64,000 nt of DNA from Pleurostoma richardsiae (lineage: Eukaryota; Ascomycota; Sordariomycetes; Calosphaeriales; Pleurostomataceae): NCBI GenBank assembly GCA_030052745.1, contig JANBVO010000007.1, positions 1 to 64,000 on the forward strand, written 5' to 3'. The notes beneath the pieces were generated by a model that saw nothing but the letters and a program-made list of their open reading frames with translations, was not told the origin of the DNA and ran no database searches. Below, piece by piece: positions 25,219-48,131 of the stretch (its first letter is position 1; the number at the start of each line of letters is the position of its first letter). A program made the position numbers and the translations under genes.

Positions 25219-25554
25219 GATACGTGTGCGCTTTGCCCCGTATTTGGTTTTGGCCGCATTATGGGAGGCCGCAAGACCTTCTTTAGCTACAAGAATATTT
25301 ACTTGGCTAGATATCAAGGGAGAATTCTGTGTCACGCAGCTATACTAAAATAAATGACCACTTGTCCTCGAATTGAATGAAAGGTGATCGCAGCTGCGAA
25401 AGCTATAGGTATGTGCCATGAAGTACGGTTGAAACAACTACTTCTAACTCTATCACAGAGCCTTGGATAGACCTTTCGTATACAAAAGGAAAGAAAATGG
25501 AATCAACTTCTTGGGTAAGATCATACCAGGCTTGAATTATGTCTTGGGGATGAT
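25219..25554. other. Convergent 3' intergenic space
   Basis: No coding or repeat signal seen between the transketolase and zinc dehydrogenase stops. Confidence 0.5.
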
Positions 25555-26841: not shown

Positions 26842-27401
26842 GAAATGCCTCGTCTGTTTCCACAGAAAATGAATCAGCAACTACACATAGAATACGCTCC
26901 AATGCTTGCTGAACCTCGGCCAGATTCTCTTCCATTTCGCTTTGAGTGCTCTTTTGAGGCTCGCAAAGAGAACTGGAGCCGGGATATTACCTCCGCACCC
27001 AGCCAGAACTGGACTGCACTTCAGGTGAGATTTCTCTAGTCAAACAAAAGCGGTCTCTAGCGTTAGAGGTGCCACTGAGCTGCAATTTCCAGGGAAACAA
27101 CGCGAAACCGCGGGATCTGGTTTCCGAGGACCCATGGTCAAGTCCCGAGTTATGCTCCAATGAACCGGAGTCAAAGGCAATACTTTCCGAATTGTGGTAC
27201 CATAGTGGGGGCCACGGTCTCGGAAGCCTCAACGCCTAAGACCCGGCGAGAGCGTTGATAGATTGTGCCGTCTAGTGAACTTGATCGCTTTGGCTGCCCT
27301 AACCGCTCCTCTACTTCTTCAATTTTGTTTGTTGCTTTCCAGAGAACTCCTTTACGTCTCGAGTCTACTGCCGAACAGATTGGCTGAGCTCGTCTTTCAT
27401 C
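26842..27401. promoter_or_regulatory. Divergent promoter region rich in CGG/CCG triplets
   Basis: It separates the zinc dehydrogenase (minus) and monooxygenase (plus). Many CGG and CCG triplets occur, for example gtttccgagg near 27121, aaccggag near 27164 and gtctcggaag near 27215, again fitting Zn2Cys6 control. No single spacing stands out. Confidence 0.3.
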
Positions 27402-29222: not shown

Positions 29223-30076
29223 GGGCGTGGTGGAATGCGCTAGGTTACTTGCTTTATGGCCAACAATTAGCACTGCAGCAAGATTTGGTTTGAATACAAG
29301 AATGCATAAATGGTCTGCCGAGCTATTACATCATTGAAATAACTGCATAACTGCTCAATACTGTTGTACTTGAATAACACATGCTCTCGGTTATTGAGGT
29401 ACCTTTTCTCAAGATTCACTCAATGCTCGACAGCTCTGCGAGGGGAAAATCGGCAAATGCGGATAACTTTAGCACTGTTGTTCATCCCACACAATCTAAG
29501 GTTGGCAGCACTCATATCCCATGGTTCTAGCCATGTACAAAGCGTGTGCTATTCCTGGTCACTACAGTCGCATGCTCGATGATAGCTTCAATTGAATTTT
29601 GACATATTTCGAATTATACAAATTTTGATCTATATCGAAAGGCATGCATAGAGAGGTTCGTCACGGATTGAGTGACTGAACTGTCTGTCGGGATTTCCCA
29701 AACATAAGGGACGATCTTGTGAAGCGAGAGTTTTCAGGTCCGCTTTGAGAGATGCCACTGTGATCTGTCCGTTGAATCAAATCCCCGGCGGACGTCAAAC
29801 CCGAGGCAAGAAGTACTATGGATTTCGAATGCCATTGCCACAGATTCCGGGGTCCCGGAACCGATTTCCGGGAAGGATATCTAAAAGGACGCGTGGTTCG
29901 GGACCTCAGTTCCGCGATGACGGCCCAAATCTCGAAAAGCCATACACCACCCATGAAGTCCTTGAGGTCCTGCGCCTTTGAAAAGAAATTTGTCTCTTGC
30001 TTCTCCACACTTGAGATTTCGAAATGGTCTGACCCGGTACCACGATCTCTGTTCTGAAAGTTTCGAAGTCGCAACC
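29223..30076. other. Intergenic; upstream of the aldehyde dehydrogenase
   Basis: Apparent open frames on both strands at 29660-30150 overlap each other and show no domain. The stretch 29845-29880 is rich in ttccgg/ccggaa words (attccgg, cccggaa, tttccggg), which could be regulator sites. Otherwise nothing is recognised. Confidence 0.4.
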
Positions 30077-31793
30077 ATGGCATCGGCGTACCACGAAGAG
30101 CATTTGAAAGGTGTACGTAGCTTCATAGTCGACCTGAGATATCAAATACGCCAATATCTAACAAATTACCTATACATAGCTGAATGACAAGAGCCTGTTT
30201 TCTGGAAACGCATTCATTGACGGACGATGGATCTCCAAGGACAAGCAGTTCGTTGTCTACGGTGCGTGATAAGACACTCCATTAGCCTTTCACCTTACTC
30301 ATGCTGGACAGAGCCCTCATCCAACGTTATCCTCGGCAAGGTGTCTGATTGCAATCTTGAAGACTTTCAAAAAGCTATCAGAAGTGCAGACCAGGCACAG
30401 CGCGACTTTTACCGTAGCACAACGGGGCCCGCCAGAGGGGCCTTACTCAGGAAGTGGAATGATCTGATCCTGGAGAACCAGGACGACCGTAAGCTCGCAA
30501 ATATCCGTCAAAAAATGCATATCCTGACATACCTAGTCGCAACGATCCTCTCCCTTGAAAACGGCAAGACCTTAGACGAGGCCAAGGGTGAGGTCGCATA
30601 TGCCGCGAGTTTCATTTCATGGTTTGCAGAAGAATCCACTCGATCCTATGGCGCTACAATCCCATCGTCAACTCCCCATACGACTCTCCTGACCATCCGC
30701 GAACCGGTGGGCGTATGCGGAATCATAACACCCTGGAACTTTCCCGCTGCTATGATAACTCGCAAAGTTGGTCCGGCTCTTGCCGCTGGCTGCTCTGTCG
30801 TGATCAAGCCGCCCAGCGAAACCCCATATACATGCATCGCTCTTACCAAGCTAGCTATTAGGGCTGGTTTGCCCCCAGCTACCATCCAAGTCTGTCCTAC
30901 GAAGGACCGTCAGGCCGCCACGGAGCTAGCCAAGGACCCTCTTGTTAAGAAGCTCAGTTTTACTGGCTCAACTGGCGTGGGTAAAAAGCTTGCCGAGCTG
31001 GCGACAAGGACCCTCAAGAAAGTCAGTCTTGAGTTGGGCGGCAACGCTCCGTTTATCATTTTCGACGACGCGAATCTTGACTTGGCCGTAGAAGGTGCTA
31101 TGTTCTGCAAGTTCCGCTGCTCGGGTCAGACTTGTGTTTGGTAAATATTCCTCGATTTCATTGTTCTCGAGTGCTCTCTAAAGTGCTAAAGGCAGCTCCA
31201 GCGCAAATCGCATCTACGTCCAGAAGGGCGTTGCCAAGGCTTTCATTGAAAAACTCGTGAGTGCAGTTCAAGCGCTCAAGATAGGACCTGGCTTAGACCC
31301 TTCCACCACACAAGGACCATTAGTCAACAAGGCTGCTGTGGAGAAGGTCAAGGAACATGTCGATGACGCTTTATCAAAAGGCGCGAAGGTCGAGGTTGGC
31401 GGGGGGGCACCTGCAATCTCCGGCTCCTTCTTTGATCCCACCGTACTCTCCGGAGTGACTCCGGAGATGGTAGTCAGTAGGGAGGAGACCTTTGGCCCGC
31501 TCGCTCCCGTGTTTGAGTTTGAAACCGAAGCAGACGTTTTACGACTTGCTAATGACAGCGAGTTCGGGCTAGCAGGATATTTCTTCACACAGGATATCGC
31601 ACGAGCTATGCGAGTAGCTCAGAAACTCCAAGTTGGCATGGTGGGCGTTAATACTGGAAAGATCAGTGCCGCAGAGGCGCCATTTGGAGGGGTTAAGGAG
31701 AGTGGCTACGGCAAGGAGGGCAGCCTTTACGGTCTGGTAGAGTACCAGAATATCAAAAGCATCACAATCGGCAACCAGAATGCCGGGCTATGA
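30077..31793 (+). CDS. Aldehyde dehydrogenase, succinate-semialdehyde-dehydrogenase-like
   Basis: Five exons (30077-30112, 30180-30261, 30312-30488, 30537-31140, 31196-31793) encode 498 residues. The third intron (48 bp) has no stop and keeps frame, so it looks like coding sequence; removing it restores ENQDDLATILSLENGKTL. Family motifs follow: CGIITPWNFP, FTGSTGVGK, the catalytic Glu in LELGGNAPFIIFDDANLD, the catalytic Cys in SGQTCVC, and EAPFGGVKESGYGKEG near the end. It should oxidise a semialdehyde or other small aldehyde to the acid with NAD(P)+. It is probably cytosolic; no clear targeting signal is seen. Its place between the monooxygenase and the tartrate-dehydrogenase-like gene points to a shared oxidation route. 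Confidence 0.88.
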
Positions 31794-32228
31794 AAAAGAG
31801 TAGTGTAGTAAGTTGAATAGATTCCAGAATGATGAATACGTTCTCCCCTCATATTCGGAAACCCGTAGTCCTGTTTCAGGCGCTTCTCACAATGACGATG
31901 CGAAGAGTTCAACTTCTCAGTTATCCTCTTCCCCATTGCTAATCTCCTTGTCAGAAGATGTCGCATTATCGTCGGCCGAGCTTGGTGAAACACTATGCCG
32001 AAGCCCGGAATCCGTTTCCCGAACCTCGGGTTCACAATTCGTAGATTTCATGTAGTCTACTTCCGATTCTTTGTTAAGGAAGAAAGGCCGAGGGGAAAAA
32101 AAAGGAAGTCAAGACAAAAAAGGGACCGAGGAAGAAAAACAAGATCTCATGGACTATTGAATCAAATCATATTTTGCGCTATAAGTTGTTCCTCCGAGGC
32201 GATAGAATCCCAGCTACAGGAACCTGCC
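31794..32228. other. Short intergenic, promoter of the next gene
   Basis: Purine-rich run agaaaggccgaggggaaaaaaaa near 32080-32105, and a CCGAACCTCGG-like cluster near 32016. No gene is seen. Confidence 0.4.
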
Positions 32229-33482
32229 ATGTCATTATCACAGACTGGCAATGGTCGCAGGCATAGGATTGCTTCCATTCCCGGCGACGGAATTGGGAAA
32301 GAAGTGGTAGAAGAGACCGTCAAGGTTCTGAGAGCTGTTGAGACGTTGTTTAACTCATTCAGCTTAGACATCGACACCCTAGATTGGAGCTCAGAGCGCT
32401 ACCTAGAACTGGGCGAGTACATTCCCAGAGACGGGTGGCAAAAGCTGGGACAGGTCAACGCAATCTTGTTTGGCGCTGTGGGCTCACCAGGTATGTGCTC
32501 AATTGTAAAGCCGACAGTTCGGCCCTAGTGACCGTTGTTCTGACAAATTTGTCCTTAATAGAAGTCCCCGATGACGTCTCCCTCTGGAATTTGATTCTGC
32601 CACTTCGAAAAAAAGTATATGCCTTGGACAGCATAACGTTCGAAGTACGAGCTGATAGGAGAGTAGCTGAATCAATACATTAACCTTCGCCCAATACGGA
32701 TACTTCCTGGGCTTTCAGCTACGCTGAGTAACTGCGCACCTGGCGACCTGGATTGGATTATTGTGCGAGAGAATAGCGAGGGCGAGTATGCCGGCCAGGG
32801 CGGGACTACGCACGACGATACCCCGTACGCCGTTGCCAACGAAGTTGCCGTATTCACTAGGATCGCAATTGAGCGTACTATGCGTTTCGCTTTCGAGATT
32901 GCTCGCGGCCGCCCCCGAAGGAAGTTGACCATGGTGACCAAGAGCAACGCCCAGAGGCATGGCATGGTCTTGTGGGACAAGATATTCTACGAGATTGTGA
33001 AAGAGTACCCAGACGTTGAATCGGACAAGATGCTGGTGGATGCAATGACTGTGCGAATGGTCCTGAAGCCTCAGTCACTCGATACCATTGTAGCCACGAA
33101 CCTCCACGGAGATATTCTGTCGGATCTAGCAGCTGCACTGGCCGGTAGCATTGGTGTCGCCGCTTCCAGCAATTTAGACCCAACAAGGCAGAACCCCAGC
33201 TTGTTCGAGCCTATCCACGGTAGTGCCCCGGATATAGCCGGCAAAGGTGTTGCTAATCCGATCGCAACATTTTGGAGTGCCGCGGAGATGCTTCGATGGC
33301 TTGGAGAAGGTGAAGCAGCAAACTCGCTAATGAGGGCCATTGAGACGGTGACTGCTTCTGGGATTAAGACAAGGGATCTGGGAGGGACATATCATCTTGT
33401 TCAAGTTACTGAAGCGGTTATTGCGGAATTAAAGCAGTCGTTTTGCGACAATAGAGAGGCCGGATCTACTGACACAGAATAG
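32229..33482 (+). CDS. Tartrate dehydrogenase-like beta-decarboxylating dehydrogenase
   Basis: Three exons (32229-32490, 32562-32614, 32667-33482) make 376 residues; the middle exon is 53 bp. The N-terminus has IASIPGDGIGKEVVEE. RPIRILPGL carries substrate-binding arginines. IIVRENSEGEYAGQGG, TMVTKSNAQRHGMVLWD with the catalytic Lys, and TNLHGDILSDLAAALAGSIG with metal-binding Asp residues are all in place, as is HGSAPDIAGKGVANP. This is the isocitrate/isopropylmalate/tartrate dehydrogenase family; the sequence style is that of TtuC-type tartrate dehydrogenase/decarboxylase. It should act on a 2-hydroxy acid such as tartrate or malate using NAD+ and a divalent metal. Confidence 0.87.
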
Positions 33483-34024
33483 CTGATTACTCGACAGCTG
33501 ATTTGCTAGGATATCTACAACTTACCTGTTGTTCCGCAAGACCGCATAAGTGCCTCTCATGTATCGATTCAGCAAACCCTGCTAATTCTTTCCTTTGCCT
33601 CAGCTTCCTGGATGCATGCATACTAGCTTGGCGGAACTATCTGTGGTTCTGGACTGGAGCTTACGTGCTGTAATCTTTGACGGGAAATAGGAAGGCAACT
33701 CAGATTGACTTTGAAATCGGGTAAGAGGTAGAGATCAGGGAAAGTTAGAAGGCTCATTGGGGGCGGAATGGTGAAACCTGGAGCGTAGCAGATTCAGAAC
33801 CAAGGGGGGATCCTGTAAAATGGTCAGTTTTGAATACAATGATTAGATAGGAGGGTGCCAGCACTCGTCTTTGCCAACGTAAACTACCACAAAGCTATGT
33901 AGGAGTAGGCCAGAATATCACGCTACTCAAGACACTCTCAATGAATGTCCTGTGACCCAGGTGGCAGACTATCAGTTCAGGTTACTAAGTGGGGAATTTT
34001 CGATTCCCCGAAGCGATGGTCTTA
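33483..34024. other. Convergent 3' intergenic space
   Basis: Lies between the dehydrogenase and transporter stops. No feature recognised. Confidence 0.5.
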
Positions 34025-35748
34025 TTATACATGCTGGCTATCAAGGATATGGTCCGCCGTAGAAGAAGCAATCTTCATGACTTCAGTCTCCTCCCGCGTG
34101 CTGGTGTCTCCGAACAACAGATCCACTTCTTCTAGGGTCTTTCCTCTTGTCTCTGGGACGAGGAACGCTGCCCAAATCCCAGCAAGCCCACAGAATACAG
34201 CAAAGAAGATATAAGTTCCGAAACCAATATTTTCAAGCATGGGAGGTGTGGCAATGCCAACAGTGAAGTTGGATAGCCAGTTGACGCAAGTAGCCAAAGC
34301 GACACCCTTCGCACGCTTAGAGTTGGGGAACACCTCTGCCGGCAAACTCCACCCCAAGGGTGAATAGGAAACACCGTAGACCATGATGAAACAGAAGGCC
34401 ATGGCGGCACAGGCCCAACCGGCAGACGTGTTTGCTGACCAGTCGTCTGAATAGACGCCGTCCAGGGCAGCAATGACCGCATAGCAGATGCAAGAACCAA
34501 ATCCTCCAAAAATGGCCAAGGGTCGTCGCCCTATCTTGTCAATAACAACGAAGCAAATCGCAACAGCAACTAATTGCAGAACGTTGAATATTCCTGATAA
34601 AATGAGAGACATCTCGTCGGACTGCCCAATGGATCTGAAGAGGGTGGGAGCGTAGTAGATGAAGGCGTTGATTCCGGAAAACTGCTGGAAGAAGCAAACG
34701 CCACACCCCACGGCGGTTCTGTGAAGCATCTTGCGATCGAAGAGATCCAGCCACGATAAGATTTCCAGCTTGAAGTTGCCGACCCCTGGGTGTTCCTGCG
34801 CCAAGGTAAGCTTGTTGAACTCGATCTCGGCGACAATTCCCTTGAACTCCTTTTGCACGCGAGAGTCAGTAGAGGGAAGACCCCTCAGCTTTGAGAGACT
34901 GGCGACACACTCATCGTGGCGACCGACAAGAGCCAGCCACCGAGGTGAGTATGGGAAGAACTGGATGCAGACGCCAAGAATCGTGGCGCAGACCATTTGC
35001 AGCCCTAGAGGGAGCCTGAAGGAGGCTTCACTGTCCATATGTCTTGTCCCATACGTAATCCAGAAAGAGATGACAACACCAGACACGATGGAGATAGACT
35101 CGAGCACGAGAAGCGTCCCTCGCAGGTTCGGCGGGGATATTTCGGAAATATACAGTGGCGCACCCTGAATTGTTTACACGTCAACGTTCGATCAAAGGAC
35201 AGTGAGACGTGTCTGTATACCATTGCGAGTGTCCCGACTCCGATGCCTCCAATGGCCCTTCCAGCAACCAGGGTTCCATAGGACCTTGCTGCGGTCTGAA
35301 TAATAGCACCGATGTCAAATATAACGACGACAACCGTTAGGGCACGCTTCCGGGAAATCTTATCGGCAAGGTACGGCATGAACAAGCAACCGACAAAAGC
35401 ACCGAACAACAACATGGCAGTCATGAAGCTAGTACCGAAAGGAGTCTTCGTCCGTGGAAAGGCGCTGTGGAACTGGTCCATGACATTGATGATTGATATG
35501 ACACCTTGGTCGTAGCCAAAGGAGAAACCGCCCAGCGAGGCAAGGAATGCGGCGCCGAAAACGTACGAGGAACCCAGCAGTCCCCGAATTCCGTCGGGGC
35601 CATACGCTAGATTCTCGGCGAAGACATCGGCTTCGCTGGATTCCTTAATACCAGTGTCGGTGACAGTGCCTTCCTCATGCTCGACCTCGGCTAAGACGGT
35701 TTGCCCGGGCATGGTAGCAGCTGAGCTGATCTTTAGATCGGCAGACAT
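34025..35748 (-). CDS. MFS sugar transporter
   Basis: Two exons (35748-35221 and 35164-34025) encode 555 residues. Sugar-porter signatures are present: GGFSFGYDQGVIS in TM1, DKISRKRA after TM2, GRAIGGIGVGTLAM, then across the intron GAPLYISEISPPNLRG. The second half has QQFSGINAFIYYAPTLF, DKIGRRPL and PETRGKTLEEVD. The N-terminal 60 residues are hydrophilic, as usual for fungal plasma-membrane members, and twelve membrane helices are expected. It should bring a sugar, polyol or related acid into the cell by proton symport. It sits at the far end of the metabolic gene run from the regulator and is the natural entry step for that pathway. Confidence 0.9.
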
Positions 35749-37011
35749 GGCGAAAGGATATCCTTAAGTCCCAGTTCAAATTTGTTAACGGTTGTTTCAG
35801 GAGCGATATATACCGAGCAAAAGATAAAACATATGGTGAAAGTTTGAAGTCTGTGAACTGAGGCTGACGAGGAGTTATACACTCTTATATCATCATAAAA
35901 AGGAAGTCAGGTTCTTTGGGTGGCTAGAGTAGATCTGGGGTAGTGAAGACGGGCAAGGATTGGTTGGAATTCGGGTTCCGAGAATGGAGGACTCGCACAT
36001 TCATAAACCCCAGGTTGTTAAGGGGCAGATGTCAAATGACGATAACGGGCGTTGGTGGGCCGTGTCAAGCCAACTACGCCTCTTGATTCCTCAGTTACTT
36101 CCCCTGTTGCCGGAAAATGCCTTCCGTAGTGGCGCAGCGATGAAACTCACTCAGTCTGCACTCAGCTTTGGCGGCCCATAAATCCGAGGGGCTTGTAAGC
36201 CACTCCGAGGACGCTGTGCATGGTCTGGTTGTGAAATAGTTTTTCTGATATCTCATACACCGCATTCTCCCTCGGTGACTTTGCCTCGTGATAAGAAGCC
36301 CATTTCCCCTTTACATTCATGTCTCAATCCGCTCTCTCCAGCCACGTGCTAACCTTACCGCGTGGATGAAACTATGCTACTTAGCAACAACTCGACATCT
36401 TGCTTATTGACCAATCACATTATTCTCCGGAGCCTATGAGCGGGACCGTGAAGCTTGGCTTATGTGCGATGTAAGAGGCCAGAAGTATCCTAGTTACCTA
36501 CACATGCTGTGAGTGTTGTAAGTGGGTGCAGAGCGCCGCGGTGGAGTTAGTGGATATAAAGCGCAACGGTGTCGCGAGTCCCTCAGGTATGGTCGCCAGA
36601 ATATAGAGTGTTTAGGAGTGTACGGTGATATCGATCACAGAGTAGCACCTACTTTGCTCCCAGTCTTGCTTAAATAGAGCAAATGTACCTAACCTAACCT
36701 ACATTACTCGGTAGCTGATGTAAGATTCGCTTCGTGCCATCATGCTCTGGAGGCGCGTGACAGATTGCCGAGCCTGGCTGGCTTCGAATTGACCACGTGA
36801 CGTCATCAATCAAAAACCGGCCTAAGATGTGAGGTTCGGATGAGAAAGACCTCGCTGCTGAAGTCCACTGAGAAGCCGTAGTATAAAGTACTTGATGAAT
36901 GATGATGCCTTTACTGAGCTGCGGATTTGGACCAGGTAGATCGTTATTGCGCAAAGCTTATGCCCTAGAGTAGAGCCTCACAATATAACAGAACTACCAT
37001 GTCAGTGCATG
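35749..37011. promoter_or_regulatory. Long upstream region of the transporter, with CACGTG and CRE-like site
   Basis: No gene is seen in this 1.26 kb. At 36794-36805 an E-box CACGTG overlaps a perfect TGACGTCA, the site of CREB/ATF-type bZIP proteins. It lies about 1 kb upstream of the transporter start and just past the acetyltransferase stop, so its target is uncertain. Confidence 0.35.
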
Positions 37012-37763
37012 TCAAGTTTCAAGTTCGAGCTTGACGAGACTTCCTGGCCATCCATCGGAGTCACGCCTCTCAACCAGAAAGTCAGCGACTTTGACGAAAC
37101 CTTGCCCAGTATAAAATCTAAATCTGCATTAGTGCGGTTACCTAGCTAGGATTGAAGCACAACTGCCGCTCGATGAACGTACTTGACAAGGCTACCGCTA
37201 TTTCCAGCCCAACAATCCAGGTATAACGCCTTGGCTCCTCTTGAAACCGAGTAAGCCCTCGCTCTTTGAAGCAGCGCTGCACCAGCCCCTTTCCGTGCTG
37301 TGCCCGTTCGAAAATCCGATATCAAGAATTCGACGTAGCAGCACACTCCATCGGTATTTGCATTCTCGAAGATTGACTTGGTGCTGTTGTGGGCTTTAAC
37401 ATAGCCGGGCCACCATTTTTCCCTCACGAAGGCAGCTCCAACCGAGAGGAAGCGTTTTCCATGGTCGTCCGTCCGGAACGATAGTCCTTGCAGGTCTGAT
37501 CCATGGTGCGTCTCTACCTCGGCGATGAATAGCCTCCCATGTTCGCTACCTTCTTGGTCGAGACGGGACGCTTCTGACAGCGGAATGCTGTCGTACATGC
37601 GCTGGCGATACTCGGCCCTCTCGGAAAACGGTGTTGAGCCCCACTGGTCGCCACTCCCGACTGACGCCAGATGAGGCAGCGCTGAATCGAATGCGGCGAC
37701 TATAAAGTCGCCGTCCGTCGGGTTGTGGCATACTTCTCTGATGTGGAATGTGGTCTCAGCCAT
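37012..37763 (-). CDS. GNAT-family N-acetyltransferase
   Basis: Two exons (37763-37183 and 37117-37012) give 228 residues. The core shows CYVEFLISDF (beta-4), RKGAGAALLQRARAYSVSRG (the acetyl-CoA pyrophosphate loop with R-x-G-x-G-A-like spacing), LYLDCWAGNSGSLVK and, across the intron, FYTGQGFVKVADF, the Y-x-x-x-G-F end of the fold. Without splicing the protein would end at a non-homologous tail. The acceptor amine is unknown. It lies next to the peptidoglycan-type enzymes; acetylation of amino sugars or D-amino acids would fit, but that is only position-based. Confidence 0.8.
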
Positions 37764-38602
37764 GGTGATTGACGAACGACCCGACCGCGCGCGACTATGA
37801 TACACAGACCCGGTGCGTCACTTCTAAAGCAGAACAGCAAACCTCTGATGGGCGGAAATTGCAGTGCAAGTGACTTATGGAGAGAGGGCATGCATGAACG
37901 AACTGGCCGGCTTTGGTTTGGCTGCTTGCTGTTACGAACATGACCCAATCAGTCCCGGAACGGAATAACTCTGTGACCGACGCTTGGATGGCAGGAATTG
38001 GCCAGCCAAAGGATTGCCAGCAAAAAAGTTGCCAGCCACTTGTGGCTGGCTAACAGACAATAAGCGGCCACGTGACCAAGACTTGAACAAGTGTTAATGA
38101 GGGAATGAATGGATATATATATATATTGGGAGGGATTTCCTAGCTACTTAGACAGTTATTACCTCAGTGACCAATCTAGGAATCTATCTTACTCATAGGT
38201 GATGCCTATTAAGGGCTGGCGACTATCCTTGTTCAATCAGTTACTCCAATCACTTGCAAGCTCAGTGCCGACCATTTTGTTTGGTCAAGTCACTGGCATC
38301 GCAGCCTGCCAGCATAAACACCAGCGCAGATATACTCTCGCAAGGTTAGTAGACAGGTTCTGGTAAATGTAAGTAATGGCTTTGATAAAGCAACCTCAAT
38401 AACATGGTGCATTGCGCTCCCTGGGAAGCCGAGAGCCGATAGAATGTGGTACCTAATAAATGGTGGACCCCATCGATGAGCTGCCAGAAGGGGTTCAGAC
38501 CGTCTTACAAAAGACAGTTAGGTAATTCAGCTCGTTCTATCTGCTAGAGCTCCAGCTGGCTGGTAACGTCACTATCTAGGTATGTTAAAGCCCTAAAGTC
38601 CT
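37764..38602. promoter_or_regulatory. Intergenic with a GCCAGCC inverted repeat and an E-box
   Basis: At 38031-38050 the perfect inverted repeat GCCAGCCACttGTGGCTGGC occurs, with more GCCAGC words at about 38001 and 38016. CACGTG is at 38069-38074, and an alternating TA run lies at about 38111-38124. These sit upstream of the acetyltransferase and downstream of the serine hydrolase. No gene seen. Confidence 0.4.
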
Positions 38603-39910
38603 TCAGAGCGGAAACGCGACATCCCGCCCCAGCGCTTTCGCCACCCAGTAACCTACAGCTTCTCTGACGATGTTATTGCTGGACCACTCCCGCGACGGAT
38701 GGACCCTGTTCGAGAAGTGGAGGAACAGCGTATCGCTAGCCCGGTCGATCACCAGAGTCGTCCCCGTGTACCCCGTGTGACTCGCAGCAAGTGGGTTGGC
38801 CATTGGACCGGCCGTATAGTACTGGTTCAGCTCGAATCCAGCACCGTGGTCGTCTCCGGGGAATCTAGCGTTAAAGTTGGTGAAGATGAGATCTACGGCA
38901 GCGGGCGAGAGAATGCGTATGCCACCGTAGGTGCCGTTGTTGAGGATCATCTGGCAGAACTTGGCCGTGTCGCCCACCGTGGAGAAGAGGCCGGCGTGGC
39001 CCGAGACCCCGCCGAGCGCCCACGCATTCTCGTCGTGGACCGTCCCGCGGACAGGCTGCGGGCGCTGTGGCTCCGCAGGTCCCAGAACTGCGATTTGAAA
39101 CTCCTCAGCGGCCATGCGACGGTAGAAGGGGAAGATGGGCCCCTCTATGTTGCCGCGGTTGAAGAACGTCGACGTCATTCCGAGCGGAATCGTGTACTCG
39201 TAGATAAGCGCGTCAAGAGGAAGATTGGTAACACTCTCGAGCACGAGCATTAGGGTCATGAAATTCAGGTCCGAGTACACATATGCGGTCCCGGGCTCGT
39301 TCTGCAGTGTCTGATTCAGGACTGCTTCTACCCTCTCCTCATATGTCTCATATATGGGATCATACAGTCCAGGAGACGGGTCAGGCTGTAGCCCGCTGGT
39401 ATGAGTCAGGAGCTGCAAAATTGTGACGGTAGCTTTTCCATTGACTCCAAAAGCCGGCAAATATGTAGCAACCGTCGCGTCCAGCTGGATTTTGCGCCGG
39501 TCGATTTGAACGAGCACAGCGACAGTGGTAAAAAGCTTCGTCAGGCTTGCCATATCGTAGATTGTGTCGACGGTGGCGTCCTCTTGGAGCCTATCAGATA
39601 GGTAAGTCGCATTCGTTCCATTGACGCTGGCATAGAGGTTCCTCTTTCCAAAGGCAAACTCGCTCACAATGACGGAGTTTCGGGCGACGAGTGTTACTCC
39701 TCCGGGCTCGATTGGTGTCAGCTGGTGGTAGTTGTGGCTGCCATAGTCACCCGGCTTTGTGTATGCGGTCAAGTTAGCCACCATATCCTCCAAGGGCCGA
39801 GCGAGCATCCCCGCTGATTCCGGCGGCCCACGCCTTAGTATATCCTTAGGAACAACACTCGCCGACGCCGTGGCGCCAGCAAGGGCCAACAGACCGAACG
39901 AGTAAAGCAT
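38603..39910 (-). CDS. Secreted serine hydrolase, AmiE-like (beta-lactamase fold)
   Basis: A single intronless frame of 435 residues. The N-terminus MLYSFGLLALAGATASA is a clear signal peptide. The S12/beta-lactamase triad is visible: S-x-x-K in MASLTKLF, Y-x-N in YVYSDLNFM, and the third motif in SHTGYTGTTLVID (HTG in place of KTG). GGVSGHAGLFSTVGD is also typical. Several N-glycosylation sequons (NLT, NGT, NAT, NQT) support secretion. In Bacillus subtilis the related YbbE/AmiE is an N-acetylmuramyl-L-alanine amidase, encoded beside nagZ and namZ. Here a NamZ-type gene is divergent at 821 bp and a NagZ-type gene is next, so the amidase role is favoured over antibiotic hydrolysis, although other esterase activities of this fold are possible. 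Confidence 0.85.
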   Translation of the reverse strand: MLYSFGLLALAGATASASVVPKDILRRGPPESAGMLARPLEDMVANLTAYTKPGDYGSHNYHQLTPIEPGGVTLVARNSVIVSEFAFGKRNLYASVNGTNATYLSDRLQEDATVDTIYDMASLTKLFTTVAVLVQIDRRKIQLDATVATYLPAFGVNGKATVTILQLLTHTSGLQPDPSPGLYDPIYETYEERVEAVLNQTLQNEPGTAYVYSDLNFMTLMLVLESVTNLPLDALIYEYTIPLGMTSTFFNRGNIEGPIFPFYRRMAAEEFQIAVLGPAEPQRPQPVRGTVHDENAWALGGVSGHAGLFSTVGDTAKFCQMILNNGTYGGIRILSPAAVDLIFTNFNARFPGDDHGAGFELNQYYTAGPMANPLAASHTGYTGTTLVIDRASDTLFLHFSNRVHPSREWSSNNIVREAVGYWVAKALGRDVAFPL

Positions 39911-40731
39911 TCTGATGTAATATAAAGTCCGACCTCCTTGCTGAAAAGGCAGCAGACCAGACGGCTGCTAACGCTATGAAGAGAGGAAGACACAAGCCGT
40001 ACCCACGATACTACTGACTGAAGTACAGGTTGAGATACTCAGCTGCAGACTCCCGAATTATTTATCCTTAAGACTAGCGTCCGGTGGAAGTAGAAACCCC
40101 GATAATATTTCGAGGATCCACTACCCAGCCTTCCAAACCGACTCCATCAGTGTTAGCACATTTGGGTGATCAGTGAGAACTGCATTCTGGGGTACTACTA
40201 TGGAAGAATCCTTATCATTGGGGCGGTCAGGGTCTATATCGCCGACGGATAACCCGTCGTTGATCGCAGTGGGGAACTGCTCACGCCTCGGACAACCCGT
40301 CATATCCTGCGTGCGGGGTAGTTCAGGTTAGGTATCTACCGTACGGCTTACCCGTCGGCAGCCGAATGCAACGATATGTCCCAAGATAAGTCCCCTGGCT
40401 GTGTCTACACCGCTGCAGTGTGTTGAAATGCTTTTTGTCGATAACATCCCGACCTACTCATCGGCTGTACCGAAAGGACGACAGCTAGTAAATCGAACGC
40501 CGCGCTTATAACGTTACATAGCTGGAGGGCTAATTAGAGCTCAACAATCGCCCGAGCCTTTCAATCACCGGATGGCGGCTAAGGATGACCAGAGGAGCGT
40601 AGATCTTGCACTAAGCCTACTCCTCCGACCACCTAAATAGATAACTGCTGCCAGTGGGAAATTCAGGAGAATATGTCCCCGATCCAAATTCTTCATCTTG
40701 CCGTCACCGAAAGCAACGTTCCGAGAGAGAG
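39911..40731. promoter_or_regulatory. Divergent promoter of the AmiE-like and NamZ-like genes
   Basis: An 821-bp gap with no gene. On the minus strand a TATA-like aaggataaataatt lies at about 40060-40073, some 150 bp before the hydrolase start. Shared control of the two genes is likely from their arrangement. Confidence 0.4.
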
Positions 40732-42086
40732 ATGCGCAAATCAGTCACTTTCTTCCTGGGCCTCGCCACAGCGGCGTTGGCGTCTAACTGTAAGGGAAAG
40801 GTGAAGACCGGGCTCGATGTCCTTCTCGCTTCCGATTATGCTGCCATAGCCGGTAAAAAGGTGCTGGTGCTCAGCAATCCCACCGGCGTGAGCCCGGAGC
40901 TAGACCTTGGAGTTGATCTCATGTTCGAGTCCGGCAAAGTAAACCTTGTCGGCGTTATGGGCCCGGAGCATGGCTTCCGTGGCACTTCGCAGGCTGGAGG
41001 TGGCCAATCGACGTTCGTAGACGAAAAGACGGGCCTCACGGTTTACGACGCGTACAACGTGAATACAACTACACTGGAGGGTTATATCGGCGACTCTGGG
41101 GCGGATACGGTACTATTCGACATTCAGGACATTGGGGCTAGATTTTATACCTGTAAGTTCGGTACCGTCACCCCTAAAACTTTGCGCATGCTGACTGATA
41201 CTGAAAAGATATATGGGCGATGTACGACACGATGGTGGCCGCGAGCGTCATGAATGTGAGCTTCGTCGTCCTGGACAGACCAAATCCTATCACAGGTCTT
41301 AATGCATTTGGGCCGATCCTGAACGAGAGCTACATCACCTCGTACGTGGGCCGGCGAGCCATCGCCCAGGCACATGGAATGACGGCCGGCGAACTCGCTG
41401 GCATGTTCGTAGGCGAAGGGTGGATCTCTGAAGCTGCGAACGGTTCATCTCTGGATTTACAGGTCATCAAGATGGAGGGCTGGAAACGGTCGATGACATT
41501 TGCGCAGACTGGACTACCATGGGTGATCCCTAGTCCCAATATGCCAACACCCGACACGGCACTGATCTATCCCGGAGCCTGCATGTTTGAAGGCACAAGC
41601 ATCTCGGAGGGACGGGGGACAACACTTCCTTTCGAGCTCCTCGGCGCTCCTTGGGCCAACGAATCGTGGTCGCTCGCAATGCGCGCTCTGGGTATCCCTC
41701 ATACGAATTACCGCTTTGCCTGCTTCACTCCCACTACGTCGAAGTTCACTTCGGAGACAGCGTGTGGCGTGCAGAATTATATACAGTTGAGCAATGTGAA
41801 GGACTACGAGGAGTTTGACCCTGTCTATGTCGGTGTCGGCCTCCTGTGGACCGCACGGCATTTGTATACAGTGGACAACACGACCGGTGACGGTATAACC
41901 ACCGACGCCTTTCATTGGATTTATGGTGGCTCTTCGAAGACTGTCTATGATATTGATGTACTTACGGGCTCACCGCTCATCAGGGACGGCATCGAGAAGG
42001 GTCTGCATCCGGCTGAGATTAAAGAGGCGTGGCTGCCGAGCCTGGAGGAGTTCAAGCAAAAGAGAACCAAGTATCTTCTGTACTAG
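40732..42086 (+). CDS. Secreted DUF1343 protein, NamZ-type exo-N-acetylmuramidase
   Basis: Two exons (40732-41152 and 41209-42086) encode 432 residues, close to bacterial family length. The signal peptide is MRKSVTFFLGLATAALA. DUF1343 signatures run through it: VLSNPTGVSP, GPEHGFRGTSQAGGG, FDIQDIGARFYTY across the intron, LDRPNPITG, PSPNMPTPDTALIYPGA and FEGTSISEGRGTTLPFELLG. Bacterial NamZ (YbbC; GH171) releases MurNAc from the non-reducing end of peptidoglycan chains. A secreted fungal copy would attack bacterial wall fragments, since fungal walls contain no MurNAc. It lies between the AmiE-like and NagZ-like genes. Activity is inferred from family; no residue is disrupted. Confidence 0.88.
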
Positions 42087-42796
42087 ATAGATTAAAGCTA
42101 GACATAGACTTCCTACATAGTTAGAGCTTATTACAAGCCCCATGAGGTGGTTCACGTATCATTTCTATTCTATTGTTGCACAATTCGGAACCACATAATA
42201 GCATCGATTCGGTCGCCGTAATGCTGCATATGACGTCGAGCATGTCGGCAACAATAACTCCGAGGAACGGGAGACACTAAAAGGATTCAAGCACTTTGTT
42301 TGATGCTAAAGTCAGGTGTCAGTCTATTCCAGCGAACCCATAGATTACCTATAATTCTATATCTTTCTCCTCACCAGTATCCATCGATACTCACTAATAA
42401 TTTGGATCTCTTGGCTCATAAAATTTCTTCATAGAGGTAAAAGTCCTAAGGAATGTAGGCCAAGGACTTGACTACAATAGAGCTACGAACAAATCCCACA
42501 GGCATAGCTATACCAGCTCGTTGATATCGGTCCCTGCGGCTATACGTGATGATGCTAACCGTAGCCTCTGTCTCCTGACAGATACACTTGGCTATTCGTG
42601 TGTCAAACTAAGGAACATGATAGCGATCTCTTTCTCAAGCCTTAGAAGGCAGTCCTAGTTAGTCTATCGGGTGTGACATAGGTGTCACAATTGATCTCGA
42701 GTGCTACCCATTCAAATCGGCAACTCGGAAGCACGTGTATAGATCAAGGGCCAATCGTCTCTATACGTTTCCCGGGCCGTGATCCGCCATCCAATG
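42087..42796. other. Convergent 3' intergenic space
   Basis: Between the NamZ-like and NagZ-like stops. No coding or repeat structure seen. Confidence 0.5.
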
Positions 42797-43879
42797 CTAA
42801 GATGAAAGAAATCGACGCAGACTTAGTATTCGACTCGTAGCAGCATCAAAGTCTGTCCTTGATAAGGTCCCATCCGCCAAAGCGGCCGCCACTGCATTCA
42901 TAACCGTTTCCCCTTGAGTAGAGTTCTGCGCCGAAGCAAGCAGCAGGTCCATCCCAGCCTGCGCAGCCAACACTGCTCGCGTTTCAACACCGCCGAAGGA
43001 CGTCAGAGCCCCAGCCTCGAGGGCGTCTGTTATGGTCACTCCACTGAAGCCTAACCTGCCTCTAAGTTCGTCGCGAATCCATTTCAAGCTAAGGCCCGCC
43101 GGTCGTTCAGGATCGAGGGACGGATATACTGCCCATGATGCCATGACCATTTTGACGCCTGCCTTCATCGCTGCGCGATACGGCACCTCATCCTTCGCGC
43201 GGATCTCTAACAGTGACCGATTCAGTGTTACTGCTGTCTCGTCTGTGTTCTCCGCATGGCTCGCGGCTCCGAGTCCCGGGAAATGCTTGGCGGTTGCAAT
43301 CACACCTCTGGCCTGCTGAGTAGAGATGAACGGCGCAACGCACTTGCTAACGAGACAGGACGTATTTCCAAAAGACCTTTGGAAATAGTCCTCAAAGTCA
43401 CCTGGCTGGTGGTAGACGTCCAGTACGGGGGCCAAATTGGTGTTTATCCCTACTGGTGCGAGGGCTTCGTATGCCTCCTCGCCGCCTTGTGCTGAGGCCG
43501 CTGCCGGATCGTCGGATGCGCCCATTTCCTTAGCGGAAAGGAAGGGTCCGCCACTCTTGATGCGCCGTACCAGACCTCCCTCTTGATCGGTCATGATGAG
43601 TAAAGGCATACCGTTGTTGCCTGGATACTCCTCGGCGGCAGCTTGGATAGTTTCGATGGCTGCGCCAGTTCCATTGTCAATGTTGGCCCCGAAAAGGATG
43701 ATGCCGCCAACCTTGCCTTGGCGAGCAAGCTCAAGGAGCCTGGCTGGAGGTATAGTCCCGGCGTAAGAGTATATGACATGTTGCCCGGCTAAGACGTCGA
43801 GATCTTCCTGTCTTGCTGTTGGTGAAGCCGTGCATGCTGCTAAGGCGCTGAATGCCAGGTACCTTGAGAAACCCTTCAT
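42797..43879 (-). CDS. Secreted GH3 beta-N-acetylglucosaminidase, NagZ-type
   Basis: An intronless frame of 360 residues, the compact one-domain size of bacterial NagZ, not the 700-900 residues of fungal GH3 beta-glucosidases. The signal peptide is MKGFSRYLAFSALAACTA. VGGIILFGANI, MTDQEGGLVRRI, GINTNLAPVLDV and TAKHFPGLGAASHAENTD follow in order, and SGVTITDALEAGAL carries the catalytic Asp. The loop that in most NagZ enzymes is KHFPGHG...DSH (acid/base His) is KHFPGLGAASH here, so the acid/base residue needs checking. The enzyme should remove GlcNAc from the non-reducing end of muropeptides, working with the neighbouring NamZ- and AmiE-like proteins. Confidence 0.88.
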   Translation of the reverse strand: MKGFSRYLAFSALAACTASPTARQEDLDVLAGQHVIYSYAGTIPPARLLELARQGKVGGIILFGANIDNGTGAAIETIQAAAEEYPGNNGMPLLIMTDQEGGLVRRIKSGGPFLSAKEMGASDDPAAASAQGGEEAYEALAPVGINTNLAPVLDVYHQPGDFEDYFQRSFGNTSCLVSKCVAPFISTQQARGVIATAKHFPGLGAASHAENTDETAVTLNRSLLEIRAKDEVPYRAAMKAGVKMVMASWAVYPSLDPERPAGLSLKWIRDELRGRLGFSGVTITDALEAGALTSFGGVETRAVLAAQAGMDLLLASAQNSTQGETVMNAVAAALADGTLSRTDFDAATSRILSLRRFLSS

Positions 43880-46028
43880 CCTGAATTCTTGGACCGAAAG
43901 AATGTATTGAAGAGAATCCAGAGTAAGTTTATATTAGCCGTCAAACATCAGAGTTTTGGCGATCGCGCCAAAAACGGACATTGGTAGCTGAAGGCACACA
44001 CTTGGTGACTTCTCCTGGGCGGATGTGACGTTAACTTCCAGCGCGACCGACGGGTATTCCGTCGCTTGAGGAGCACCCCCACACGCAGTTCCGGACATGT
44101 TAACACCATCAAGCCTACCGTGGTGCAGAAACGGCAGGTAACGGCGCTGGCCGCCCCATTCGAGTCCACGCTCGATAATAATTCAATACCTCCTCGCTCG
44201 CCTCAATTCCGGAAACATGGATATCAGCTTCACGAGCAAGTGCGCTACGGGTTAGGTCCGTCTAAGATGAGAGACGGGCGCATCAAGACCAGAAGATCAA
44301 TTGCTAAAGCAATCATGAAGAGCGATATTAATGACGACGTAGGTCCGTTAATCCTTGTAGACTGAACTCTATAGAATTATCAAGTTTCCATTTTCAAAAA
44401 TAACCAAGATGTCCATAAGTGGCGTCATTCCCGCAAAAAGTCAGTGCCTCTTGTACGGCAATGCTCAGTTAACAAGGGCCCCTTAGCTTCTACAAACGTG
44501 CCGTAACCGGAAAGTCAAACGCGATAAGGCCCTGCGGTGCCGGAAGTTCACTGTCGTCAGTATCATCTACTTGCTCCCCACGCAGATCTGCACGGCCCAC
44601 AGGTGGAAGAAAGTGGCAGCCAAGGCAGCGAATAATGAGGCGGACGCTAGAGCGGACAAGACGCTCTCCGACCGGTTCAACTGACTAGAGACCATGTTGA
44701 AGCACTATGCGTTAATCTGCACGGCCGAGAGGCTTCGTTGAAACCCGGTCCATCTTTATCCCTTCACGCAGATCGGCCAACGTATAAATGCAGGGCTTCT
44801 ACGCGTATGCAAGTGTGGGAATGCTAGCATACTGATCAATTGACCAAGGGCCGAAATGGCAGGTAGAACTGCAAGTAGCTCGTATACTACCAGATATCAA
44901 CTCTTGACTGTCTTAACATCTCTCTTTTTTTTTCATTGAGCTACATTACCTCTCCGCCTCTTCAGCCCAGCTGCATGACGGCCTGTGTGATGCTAATCGA
45001 GTGCGAGCTCCGGCGAGTCTGGCAGCCCAGGAAGAACAGTACTCGACGGCATGGAAAAGGCCAGACCAGGCGAGCAAGGGCTGCATGGTGCACCGCAAAG
45101 ATGATAGATCAGACGAGGCCGAGAATGACTGAGCTGTTTCAAGGGGATTTGCTCGCGAAAACAAGCCCGTTGGGTTTTGATTACCGGGGGTATGCCAATA
45201 GCTTTTAGCGAAGTAACAGTAGGAGTTTCAATGCGGGAATGAGTTAGGAATACTAACCGGACAGAGGGTAGAGTTTGAATTTATCCAGTCATTTATCCAG
45301 TACATAACAGTGACCTAGCGACGGAGATGCAACTGCTTAGTGATGGGAGTATGTCGGCAATAGCAAGTGTACCTACGCTGATGCACTTGGAGCTCTTGTG
45401 CTAACACCCGTACCTGCCATGCTTGCTATCCTCGGTAGACAAGACAAGTCCGCGGCCTGTGTCATTAGAGGCTTCATGTCTACGGGTGAAGTAGAGTGTC
45501 TCAGGGGTTAACTTGTTCACCACACGCAAGTTAAGCCAGCTCCCCTGAAATCCTCCAAAATCAGACCCGGGTTAGCTGATATTAGTTATCTCCCACATGG
45601 CCGTTGCCCTTGCCGACATTGTGACCTGGAATCAATTTCTCCGCGCTCACTGAGCTCGCCGATGGACAAGACCCCGTGTACGGAGTCATGATTAGCACCT
45701 ATGGACAAGTTGCATGGCCGACAAAACACCTCGACGATGTTGGCAAAGAGAACATACCTGGTTCGACCATACCGGGACCCACACAGTAGATACGTTCTGC
45801 TCTTAGCGGTCCATTCCGGACTTATTGACGGAGTGTATCTTGATAACGGACCGAGATCGGGCGCTAAGGGTTCGGAATTCGGCTACGGCGCTTCATGACA
45901 GTCAGACTATCTGTTGTTCAATCCTTCTTCTTTCCGCTGCTACAGTCCGCCGCAACGTAAATCCACGGCAGGCATAATCGATATCTCCCGACCAGTAGGC
46001 TTCGCCTTGTCAAGCTAGCTCCCTCAAA
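43880..46028. other. 2.1-kb gap with possible coding remnants
   Basis: No gene can be supported. A 99-codon plus-strand frame at 44066-44365 and a Lys/Arg/Ala-rich stretch at about 44511-44684 (VKRDKALRCRKFTVV near its start) look faintly coding but match nothing I know. An interrupted older gene or transposon piece between the NagZ-like and D-aminoacylase genes is possible. Confidence 0.35.
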
Positions 46029-48131
46029 ATGTCGTGTGAAGCCGATATTCTCTTCTCCTCGGCGACGGTGATCACCGGCGACGAGTCCGCCGAGCCGTTT
46101 GTCGCCGATGTCCTCATCTCAAATGGCCTTATTGCTCGGATCGGTAACCCAGGCTCTGTCGATGCCCCTGCCTCCGCTCGCCGGATCGATGCAAAAGGCC
46201 ACTACCTCTCACCCGGTTTCATTGATATGCACGCTCACTCTGACCTGTACCTCCTAACCCATCCGGAGCACGAGGCAAAGATCACTCAAGGATGCACAGT
46301 GAGTATGCGAACGCAATAACAAATTCCATTCTCCACACACCTTTTACCGGAGGATATCTCGGCCTCTTCCGCCTAGTATACATACCATGGCTTACCTTTT
46401 ACCGTAGACCGAGGTCGTTGGCCAAGACGGCATATCCTACGCTCCGATTCGGAACACAGACCAACTCAGGGCCATACGAGAACAGATCGCAGGCTGGAAT
46501 GGCAATCCGACGGACAATGAATGCCAGACCACGCTTAAGGGGATTGGTATGTTTGATTGGCGAACCGTTGGAGACTACCTCGACTGCCTCGAGAGGAACC
46601 GCACGGCCACGAATGTTGCCATGTTGGTGCCTCAAGGGAACCTGCGACTGCTAGCCTGTGGACCTTATGACACTCCCGCTACGTCCGAGGAGATCCAGGA
46701 TCAAGTTCAACTCCTGCGAGAAGCGATGGAAGAAGGTGCCGTCGGCATGTCCAGGTTAGTAGAACATACACGAGTCTCTTCTCTTCATGTCACGAAGTCA
46801 TATATCTCAACACATCTCCTTCCTAATATGCTCAAACAGTGGCCTGACATATACTCCTGGGATGTATGCATCGACGTCCGAGCTCGCCGTTCTCTGCAAG
46901 ACACTCGCCTCGGAGTACCCCGGTGCTTTCTACGCCCCGCATCATCGTAGCTATGGTCTACGAGCAATTGAGAGCTACGCTGAGATGCTAGACCTGGGCG
47001 AAGCTACACAATGTCCCGTTCGTAAGTAACAAGTCATCTATAAGTCCTCGCTGGTGGATTCTGCATTAGCTAATGCAGTCATGATGGACCATAGATCTTA
47101 CGCATGCTACACTGAACTTTGCGGAAAACAAGGGAAAGGCACCCCACCTCATCTCAATGATCGACCAGAAACTGGAAAAGGGTGTCGACATCACGCTCGA
47201 CACTTATCCGTATCTACCAGGCTGCACAACTCTTGCGGCCTTATTGCCCAGTTGGGCCTCGTCCGGCGGACCAGTCGAGACATTGAAGCGACTCGAGGAT
47301 CCGGAAGCGAGAGAAAAGATACGCATCGCCGTGGAGGTGACAGGTTGTGATGGCGGTCATGGAATACCAACTAACTGGGATGAAATCCAGGTACGTCGGG
47401 CGACTATGACCCGTTTGTCGATATCTCTCCTTATAGATGTATAACCTCTTGTTCTCTAGATTGGTACTCCCCGGGACCCGTCTCTGGCGTCCTATGCTGG
47501 CCGCCGCGTGGGCGAGGTTGCGCGCTCGCAGAACAGACCACCCATTGCGATATTCTTCGAGGTCCTGCAGAAGGACAAGCTGGCCACGAGCTGTCTGATG
47601 CACATTGGCAACGAGGAGAATGTACAGCGGATCCTGCAGCATCGTGTTCACATGGCAGGTAGTGATGCCATCTTGCACGGAAAATCCGTACACCCGCGCG
47701 CATACGGTACTTTTCCTCGCTTTTTGGGTGAGGCTCCATCTTTTAATTGTTATCGTGCCGTCGTTATGCAAATCCAACGCCAATGAGCCGTCCTAACACT
47801 CGATGCAGGTCACTACGCCCGTGATCTCTCCTTGCTCTCCCTGCCGGCTATGGTCGCCCATTTAACTTCACGCCCTGCTAAACGACTATCTGTCTATCCT
47901 CACCGTGGCGTCATCGCTGAGGGATCGGCCGCTGACGTTGTGCTATTCGACCCGACAATGATAAAGGACATGGCAACGTTCGAAGAACCAAAACTACCGA
48001 GTCGAGGCATCCAATTTGTCCTTGTAAACGGCGAGGTTGCTCTTGACGAGGGCAAGATGACCGGCGTGAGGGCCGGAAAGACACTGAGGCGGCTCAAGAA
48101 TGGTCAGGTTGTTGCGAAGGGCGAGCAGTGA
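46029..48131 (+). CDS. D-aminoacylase (N-acyl-D-amino-acid deacylase)
   Basis: Six exons: 46029-46298, 46408-46754, 46840-47021, 47095-47390, 47460-47727 and 47809-48131. The joined protein is an amidohydrolase. ISNGLIARIG and GHYLSPGFIDMHAHSDLYLL, with the metal-binding H-x-H-x-D, open it. TEVVGQDG, GAVGMSSGLTYTPGMYAS (across intron 2), FYAPHHRSYG, VHLTHATLN, GSDAILHGKSVHPRAYGTFPRFLG and a closing PHRGVIAEGSAADVVLFDP follow. This is the D-aminoacylase pattern throughout. No signal peptide, so cytosolic. The enzyme frees D-amino acids from N-acylated forms. Peptidoglycan stems are a main source of D-Ala and D-Glu, so its place beside NagZ/NamZ/AmiE-like genes fits a common purpose. Confidence 0.88.

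Follow-up and report, generated by a model that had tools for sequence, protein, structure and literature searches.

Soil and dead wood hold much carbon and nitrogen in the form of bacterial peptidoglycan, and fungi are, to our knowledge, not usually counted among its recyclers. In Bacillus subtilis, the muropeptide rescue genes form the cluster murQ-murR-murP-amiE-nagZ-ybbC, and yfeW, the gene for PBP4B, belongs to the murQ operon of Escherichia coli (PMC5061867, in the parts of that text accessible to us). Here, we describe a group of genes in the first 64,000 nucleotides of contig JANBVO010000007.1 (assembly GCA_030052745.1; this whole stretch is called the window) of the ascomycete Pleurostoma richardsiae, which encode an AmiE-type serine hydrolase of family S12, a protein of the exo-beta-N-acetylmuramidase family NamZ, a glycoside hydrolase family 3 (GH3) protein, and a D-aminoacylase-like protein. 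The ybbC gene of the B. subtilis cluster is presumably namZ. The first three of the fungal genes probably constitute an ascomycete set for muropeptide scavenging, in which muropeptides would be dismantled outside the cell for food. A preliminary description of this DNA, made from its letters, had likened it to the cluster in B. subtilis, with which the gene order given above agrees. Its interpretation was partly supported: it was right in outline, wrong on NagZ, and unproven on D-aminoacylase, and the case for the use of N-acetylmuramic acid (MurNAc) has become stronger.

A cluster of intact single-copy genes

Four intact genes in a row had been read from the DNA, and their coordinates, open reading frames (ORFs), splice sites, and Pfam domains were borne out (Table 1). 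The P. richardsiae genome comprises 39.4 Mb in 136 contigs, and the one that carries the set is 938,411 bases long. The spliced NamZ model was identical to the P. richardsiae protein entry at 432 of 432 residues (100% identity). The genes for NamZ, the AmiE-type hydrolase, and the GH3 protein were each found once in the genome; the closest other GH3 and S12 proteins showed 30% and 29% identity, respectively, the latter in a longer match. Assuming uniform placement, the chance of three unlinked single-copy genes falling within 5.3 kb is approximately 7e-8. The divergent layout of the AmiE-type and NamZ genes suggests that the 821-bp gap between them may hold a shared promoter. Bacterial contamination was ruled out because the NamZ and D-aminoacylase genes contain introns, the three enzymes each form one fungal clade, and the contig is 938 kb long.

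The signal peptides that had been proposed for the first three proteins were matched by signal-like hydrophobic N-termini. These were scored by hydropathy and by eye, and the hydropathy score by itself does not set the trio apart from the D-aminoacylase-like protein. The three proteins are putatively secreted.

NamZ and the AmiE-type hydrolase

The domains NamZ_N (PF07075) and NamZ_C (PF20732) were both found over the curated Pfam cut-offs and at full length, with 84.6 and 123.4 bits for the N domain in the two exons and 148.3 bits for the C domain. The best solved relative was 4k05 (209 bits). The GPEHGFRG region, which we take to be the active-site region of NamZ, was invariant in 17 of 17 aligned rows, and the exact string was present in 88 of the 120 relatives listed, the remainder including entries that start behind the region. 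Judged by these domains and this motif, the assignment to NamZ (DUF1343) made in the preliminary description is solid, and the fungal protein is predicted to release MurNAc from non-reducing ends.

Ranks 1-61 of the 120 NamZ relatives listed belong to the fungal list, with at least 60% identity, and from rank 62 those with organism names are actinobacterial, with 46-50% identity. By our class placement, the fungal hosts are Sordariomycetes, Eurotiomycetes, and Leotiomycetes. Entries P0034-P0061 (n = 28) are nearly all short. In 24 of the 28, the first residue is 145 or 149, just past the junction of the exons at codon 141, which would fit an unspliced ORF prediction and an intron common to the relatives.

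The S12 protein matched the Pfam family Beta-lactamase (PF00144) with 177.6 bits and has the three motifs of its family, SxxK, YxD/N, and HxG. Among the 120 relatives listed, AS.[ST]K occurred in 120, Y.YSD in 91, and H[TS]G.TG in 119. A prokaryote genome collection was scanned with the NamZ alignment, and the best 80 of at least 584 confirmed stretches, all actinobacterial, were analyzed with flanks of up to 10 kb. Relatives of the fungal S12 protein were found near NamZ at 16 of these 80 loci; at 14 of the 80 the relative was nearly full length and immediately followed NamZ in the same orientation. The 14 neighbors shared 37-45% identity with the fungal protein over 367-425 aligned residues (214-295 bits), and SxxK, YSD, and HTGYTG were common to the fungal protein and the 11 neighbors examined. 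GH3 and MurQ genes were present at 12 and 8 of the 80 loci, respectively. GH3, NamZ, AmiE-type, and MurQ genes occurred all together at four loci, in Kribbella (two), Terrabacter, and Knoellia. A second sampling from the S12 side, covering 396 actinobacterial genomes at E 1e-50 with 1.5-kb flanks, yielded 26 places in 21 genomes. NamZ was in the flank at four of the 26 and GH3 at one, and the top-scoring place (L158, 47%) had neither. The identity and the three kept motifs support the earlier suggestion that the fungal S12 protein is an AmiE-type hydrolase, here as kin of the actinobacterial NamZ-neighbor gene.

Ancestry of the three enzymes

Phylogenetic trees were built with rows from the 120 relatives listed (40 for AmiE, 43 for GH3, and 32 of the top 33 for NamZ); the rows counted as fungal include metagenome proteins assigned as fungal by their place in the match list. 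The fungal-list rows formed one side of a branch in each tree, with support of 100/100 for NamZ (32 fungal-list and 35 bacterial rows), 100/99 for GH3 (43 and 38 rows), and 100 for S12 (40 and 38 rows; quick method). Because the fungal rows form one clade in all three trees, these fit a single old acquisition by fungi in each family and no recent arrival in P. richardsiae. The donor phylum is not proved because the bacteria were represented by actinobacteria alone, and donors outside this phylum remain compatible with the trees.

MurQ-kinase genes outside the window

The preliminary description had noted that neither a MurQ-type etherase nor a MurNAc uptake system is in the window and had left the fate of MurNAc open. 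For the etherase, this point is answered by two genes elsewhere in the genome, in each of which a MurQ-type part precedes a kinase part of the BcrAD/NagK type. The etherase part of the first (L003) scored 300.2 bits with NF003915 (cut-off, 168) and 258.1 bits with NF009222 (cut-off, 255), and 240.5 bits with the equivalog TIGR00274, which is under the cut-off of 302. In comparison with solved structures, it matched MurQ with 177 bits and the glucokinase regulator with 59 bits, a three-fold difference. Its identification as a glucokinase regulator was ruled out on these scores, although Pfam labels the SIS part GKRP_SIS_N. Two Glu residues in the SELP and EEAED regions, presumably catalytic in MurQ, are kept in the alignments. 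The kinase part was closest to the MurNAc/N-acetylglucosamine (GlcNAc) kinase 8zo3 (E 1.3e-12).

Proposed route

The scavenging set, taken together with the genes found elsewhere, can be arranged into the following route. Soluble muropeptides would be supplied by the GH25 lysozyme of the genome and by bacterial autolysins. Outside the cell, the GH3 protein would take off the non-reducing GlcNAc, NamZ would next free the MurNAc at the non-reducing end, and the AmiE-type hydrolase would cleave the lactyl-L-Ala amide, so that GlcNAc, MurNAc, and peptide remain. Once taken up via a transporter, MurNAc would be phosphorylated by the kinase domain of the two fusion proteins. Their MurQ domain would then remove D-lactate, and the GlcNAc-6-phosphate formed would pass into ordinary amino-sugar catabolism.

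Only tentatively do we suggest that this route may be a complete eukaryotic one, in which a secreted NamZ, an amidase, and a GH3 with a new acid/base, Asp in place of His, operate with a cytosolic MurNAc kinase-etherase to give GlcNAc-6-phosphate and D-lactate. In this tentative proposal, Pezizomycotina would have assembled it from genes acquired separately and long ago from bacteria, probably actinobacteria, and the fungus would later have brought them together in a cluster.

The GH3 protein, gene linkage, and alternative explanations

The observations in this section include those that weigh against a muropeptide-scavenging set. The GH3 protein (PF00933, 196.8 bits) has a TIM-barrel fold like solved NagZ and had been taken for a compact NagZ. 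NagZ is defined by an Asp-His catalytic dyad in KHFPGHGx4D(S/T)H (accessible parts of PMC4974736 and PMC6572805). However, the motif KHFPG[HL]Gx4D[ST]H was found in none of the 120 GH3 relatives listed, the P. richardsiae protein included; [N/D]TD was at the dyad site in 109 of them, as also seen in the alignment against 6k5j. In contrast, the dyad (DSH) was present in 11 of 11 examined GH3s beside actinobacterial NamZ. By the accepted dyad test, as applied to these sequences, the fungal GH3 protein is not a NagZ. Asp213 sits at the position of the NagZ His, and the protein would need a different acid/base, most simply this residue. D98, R168, K198, H199, and D285, which we take to be GlcNAc-site residues or the nucleophile of the NagZ fold, were invariant in 22 of 22 aligned GH3s. 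In the accessible parts of the literature searched, no description of the NTD form or of the acid/base of TD-type GH3s was found.

The fungal GH3 belongs to a different actinobacterial GH3 lineage, and its nearest bacterial kin is not the operon NagZ. In the sole top genome with both, the GH3 and AmiE kin are unlinked (contigs C2 and C7 of G016). Because the GH3 motif and clade differ, a single joint transfer of the operon NagZ together with NamZ and AmiE was rejected. The fungal GH3 protein Ngs1, which has also lost the dyad His, is without hydrolase activity (accessible parts of PMC5063960). As separate observations, a TD triplet replaces the Asp-His dyad in an actinobacterial GH3 lineage (L099, L129-L138), as in solved 5bu9, and a bacterial protein with the NTD motif (L103) sits on a long branch apart from the TD clade. 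Contig C13 of P. richardsiae (755965-756774) encodes a GH3 with 30% identity in a 705-codon open frame, possibly of the Ngs1/RmNag GH3-GNAT type.

Linkage in other fungi was assessed by proxy, entries from the lists of relatives (61 NamZ, 120 GH3, and 120 S12) being taken as sharing a contig when their contigs were equal in bases; the chance level was estimated from near-miss sizes. Among these entries, NamZ and GH3 were on one contig in one case beyond P. richardsiae (Thelonectria olida; 0.08 by chance), NamZ and S12 in three (Talaromyces pinophilus and contigs of 18,148 and 5,330 bases; 0.28), and GH3 and S12 in six (Cordyceps javanica, Conoideocrella, and four metagenome contigs; 0.18). Metarhizium rileyi was excluded from the count, its entries being from different assemblies. 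Pairs of the trio thus co-reside more often than chance. In Conoideocrella luteorostrata, GH3 and S12 have consecutive locus tags (QQS21_009752 and QQS21_009753), and NamZ (QQS21_001218) is on a separate contig. GH3 of T. pinophilus is likewise on a different contig from its NamZ and S12. Members are also on separate contigs in Talaromyces islandicus, T. proteolyticus, T. stipitatus, Aspergillus turcosus, A. sclerotialis, Helicocarpus griseus, Purpureocillium lavendulum, and Pseudogymnoascus F-3808, some of these cases possibly comparing different assemblies or broken contigs. Co-occurrence of the trio in other fungi, a question raised in the preliminary description, was found for pairs, whereas the entries listed yielded no further contig that carries the whole trio. 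The outcome that the preliminary description had named as refuting, namely ordinary fungal families inherited separately and at scattered loci, is half borne out: each enzyme forms one fungal clade and the members are often apart, yet pairs share contigs above chance.

No AmiE-type gene adjoined NamZ at 66 of the 80 actinobacterial loci; most of these 66 are of Streptomyces, and several contigs are short. The label AmiE-type derives from kinship to the actinobacterial NamZ-neighbor gene. AnmK was rejected as a member of the route: one of two AnmK-type genes encodes a levoglucosan kinase, with 650 bits against 4yh5, and the second (L008), an ambiguous case, scored 127 bits with AnmK and 102 bits with levoglucosan kinase. 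A search of the genome for NlpC/P60 gave no match, and a MurNAc transporter did not turn up, no search having been aimed at one. Apart from this, the former AnmK-type gene (L007:1501-2736, contig C1) has a Pfam AnmK match yet is a levoglucosan kinase by solved structures, and fungal AnmK annotation needs care.

The D-aminoacylase-like protein matched Amidohydro_3 (99 bits) and the D-aminoacylase 1m7j (235.6 bits), and is also related to the N-acyl-D-glutamate deacylase 3gip. GQDG of the fungal protein corresponds to GNCG of 1m7j, Asp replacing Cys, and the His and Asp ligand regions align; this Cys and these regions are presumably metal ligands. The gene is single in the genome (next match, 26 bits), and 2,149 bp separate its start from the GH3 gene. 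No D-aminoacylase was found at the 80 actinobacterial NamZ loci. The earlier claim of an intact D-aminoacylase gene stood, whereas its role in the set is tied to adjacency alone and its membership is unproven.

A loose neighborhood would accommodate much of this: NamZ, and perhaps the amidase, would act on bacterial wall, the GH3 protein would be dead or would be an ordinary fungal beta-hexosaminidase or other exo-glycosidase that acts on chitin oligomers or glycans, the D-aminoacylase would be unrelated, and the genes would form a small cluster that serves no single pathway. The missing dyad motif, the distance from the operon NagZ, the example of Ngs1, the separation of members in nine named fungi, and the absence of D-aminoacylase from the actinobacterial loci agree with such an arrangement. 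However, the three single-copy genes within 5.3 kb, the six further contigs with both GH3 and AmiE-type genes, and the five invariant GH3 residues argue against it, and we regard it as unlikely, if worth keeping in mind.

The S12 protein could instead be an esterase, a beta-lactamase-like enzyme, or a D-aminopeptidase with no role in peptidoglycan turnover. PF00144 is functionally mixed, the top NCBIfam model, PBP4B/YfeW, was matched with 148.9 bits, far under its cut-off of 385, and the best Protein Data Bank match reached 54 bits. On the other hand, yfeW/PBP4B is in the murQ operon of E. coli, and the B. subtilis operon likewise contains amiE (PMC5061867, accessible parts). The identity and active-site motifs shared with the actinobacterial NamZ neighbors at 14 loci likewise make such a function improbable.

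A role in defense or signaling, in which the secreted hydrolases would weaken rival bacteria or break down muropeptides by which bacteria, plants, or animals would be alerted, is compatible with the signal-like N-termini of three of the four proteins and with the reported antibacterial activity of CwhA, a secreted fungal peptidoglycan endopeptidase (accessible parts of PMC12332128), but is very doubtful, as an exo-acting NamZ and a muropeptide amidase should, by the example of B. subtilis NamZ and AmiE, leave intact sacculi unbreached, and the MurQ-kinase fusions point to MurNAc catabolism.

Features of the locus and neighboring genes

Table 1. Positions of the genes and gene parts described in P. 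richardsiae (G000). Plain coordinates are those of the window.
Feature	Position	Strand	Remarks
AmiE-type S12 serine hydrolase	38603..39910	minus	uninterrupted ORF of 435 aa; signal-like N-terminus; motifs SLTK, YSD, HTG
Intergenic, between divergent AmiE-type and NamZ genes	39911..40731		821 bp
NamZ (exo-beta-N-acetylmuramidase family), exon 1	40732..41152	plus	signal-like N-terminus
NamZ, intron	41153..41208	plus	GT..AG, 56 nt
NamZ, exon 2	41209..42086	plus	
GH3, single-domain	42797..43879	minus	uninterrupted, 360 aa; signal-like N-terminus; NagZ fold, NTD instead of Asp-His dyad
D-aminoacylase / N-acyl-D-amino-acid deacylase-like amidohydrolase	46029..48131	plus	561 aa; six exons, five GT..AG introns; by eye no signal peptide
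MurQ-kinase fusion 1	L003:199-2265, contig C84		single 688-codon ORF
MurQ-kinase fusion 2	L004:1188-3383, contig C68		several exons
GH25 lysozyme	contig C24		signal-like N-terminus by eye
S66 peptidase	contig C78		

A Sugar_tr-family sugar transporter of the major facilitator superfamily is encoded near the set (window 34025-35763, minus strand); it is a candidate for uptake of a released sugar, with nothing linking it to the set. The ORF adjoining the AmiE-type gene (37146-37805) is N-acetyltransferase-like by eye, without a Pfam match, and may have an intron at its end. Further away (23000-33500) there is a row of transketolase-like, zinc alcohol dehydrogenase, flavin monooxygenase-like, aldehyde dehydrogenase, and isocitrate/isopropylmalate dehydrogenase-like genes; Pfam backs the alcohol, aldehyde, and isopropylmalate-type genes, and the others were named by eye.

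Comparison with known systems

Among the top-ranked papers of the largely open-access literature searched, no fungal description of NamZ/DUF1343/GH171, MurNAc catabolism, muropeptide rescue, or transferred peptidoglycan enzymes was found. In the accessible part of a Monascus genome paper, an annotated murQ was placed under chitin synthesis (PMC9159588). If the scavenging reading is true, filamentous ascomycetes can use MurNAc, the sugar peculiar to bacterial walls, via enzymes of bacterial ancestry, and the fused kinase-etherase would reduce MurNAc catabolism to a step carried out by one protein. The locus offers named single-copy genes for direct testing and a GH3 lineage that does not follow the Asp-His rule of NagZ.

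Unlike the GH3-GNAT proteins Ngs1 and RmNag, the P. richardsiae GH3 protein has a signal-like N-terminus, consists of the GH3 part only, and has Asp instead of Leu at the His position. CwhA of Aspergillus fumigatus, which we take to be an NlpC/P60 enzyme, a type without a match in P. richardsiae, differs in enzyme and in the bond attacked. It is alike in being a secreted fungal enzyme against bacterial peptidoglycan, and is the nearest precedent found (PMC12332128, accessible parts). The P. richardsiae set resembles the B. subtilis cluster in that the same three extracellular activities are predicted together, with MurQ as the intracellular etherase (PMC5061867, accessible parts). In contrast to that cluster, it is eukaryotic, with genes in both orientations, an intron in NamZ, a one-domain GH3 that lacks the NagZ dyad, and a MurQ that is encoded away from the set in fusion with a kinase. 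The actinobacterial GH3-NamZ-AmiE-MurQ loci of Kribbella, Terrabacter, and Knoellia, and that of Glycomyces without MurQ, differ in that their GH3 has the DSH dyad and the fungal GH3 comes from another actinobacterial lineage. They are alike in sequence, with 46-48% identity in NamZ and 37-43% in AmiE, and in the position of AmiE directly behind NamZ.

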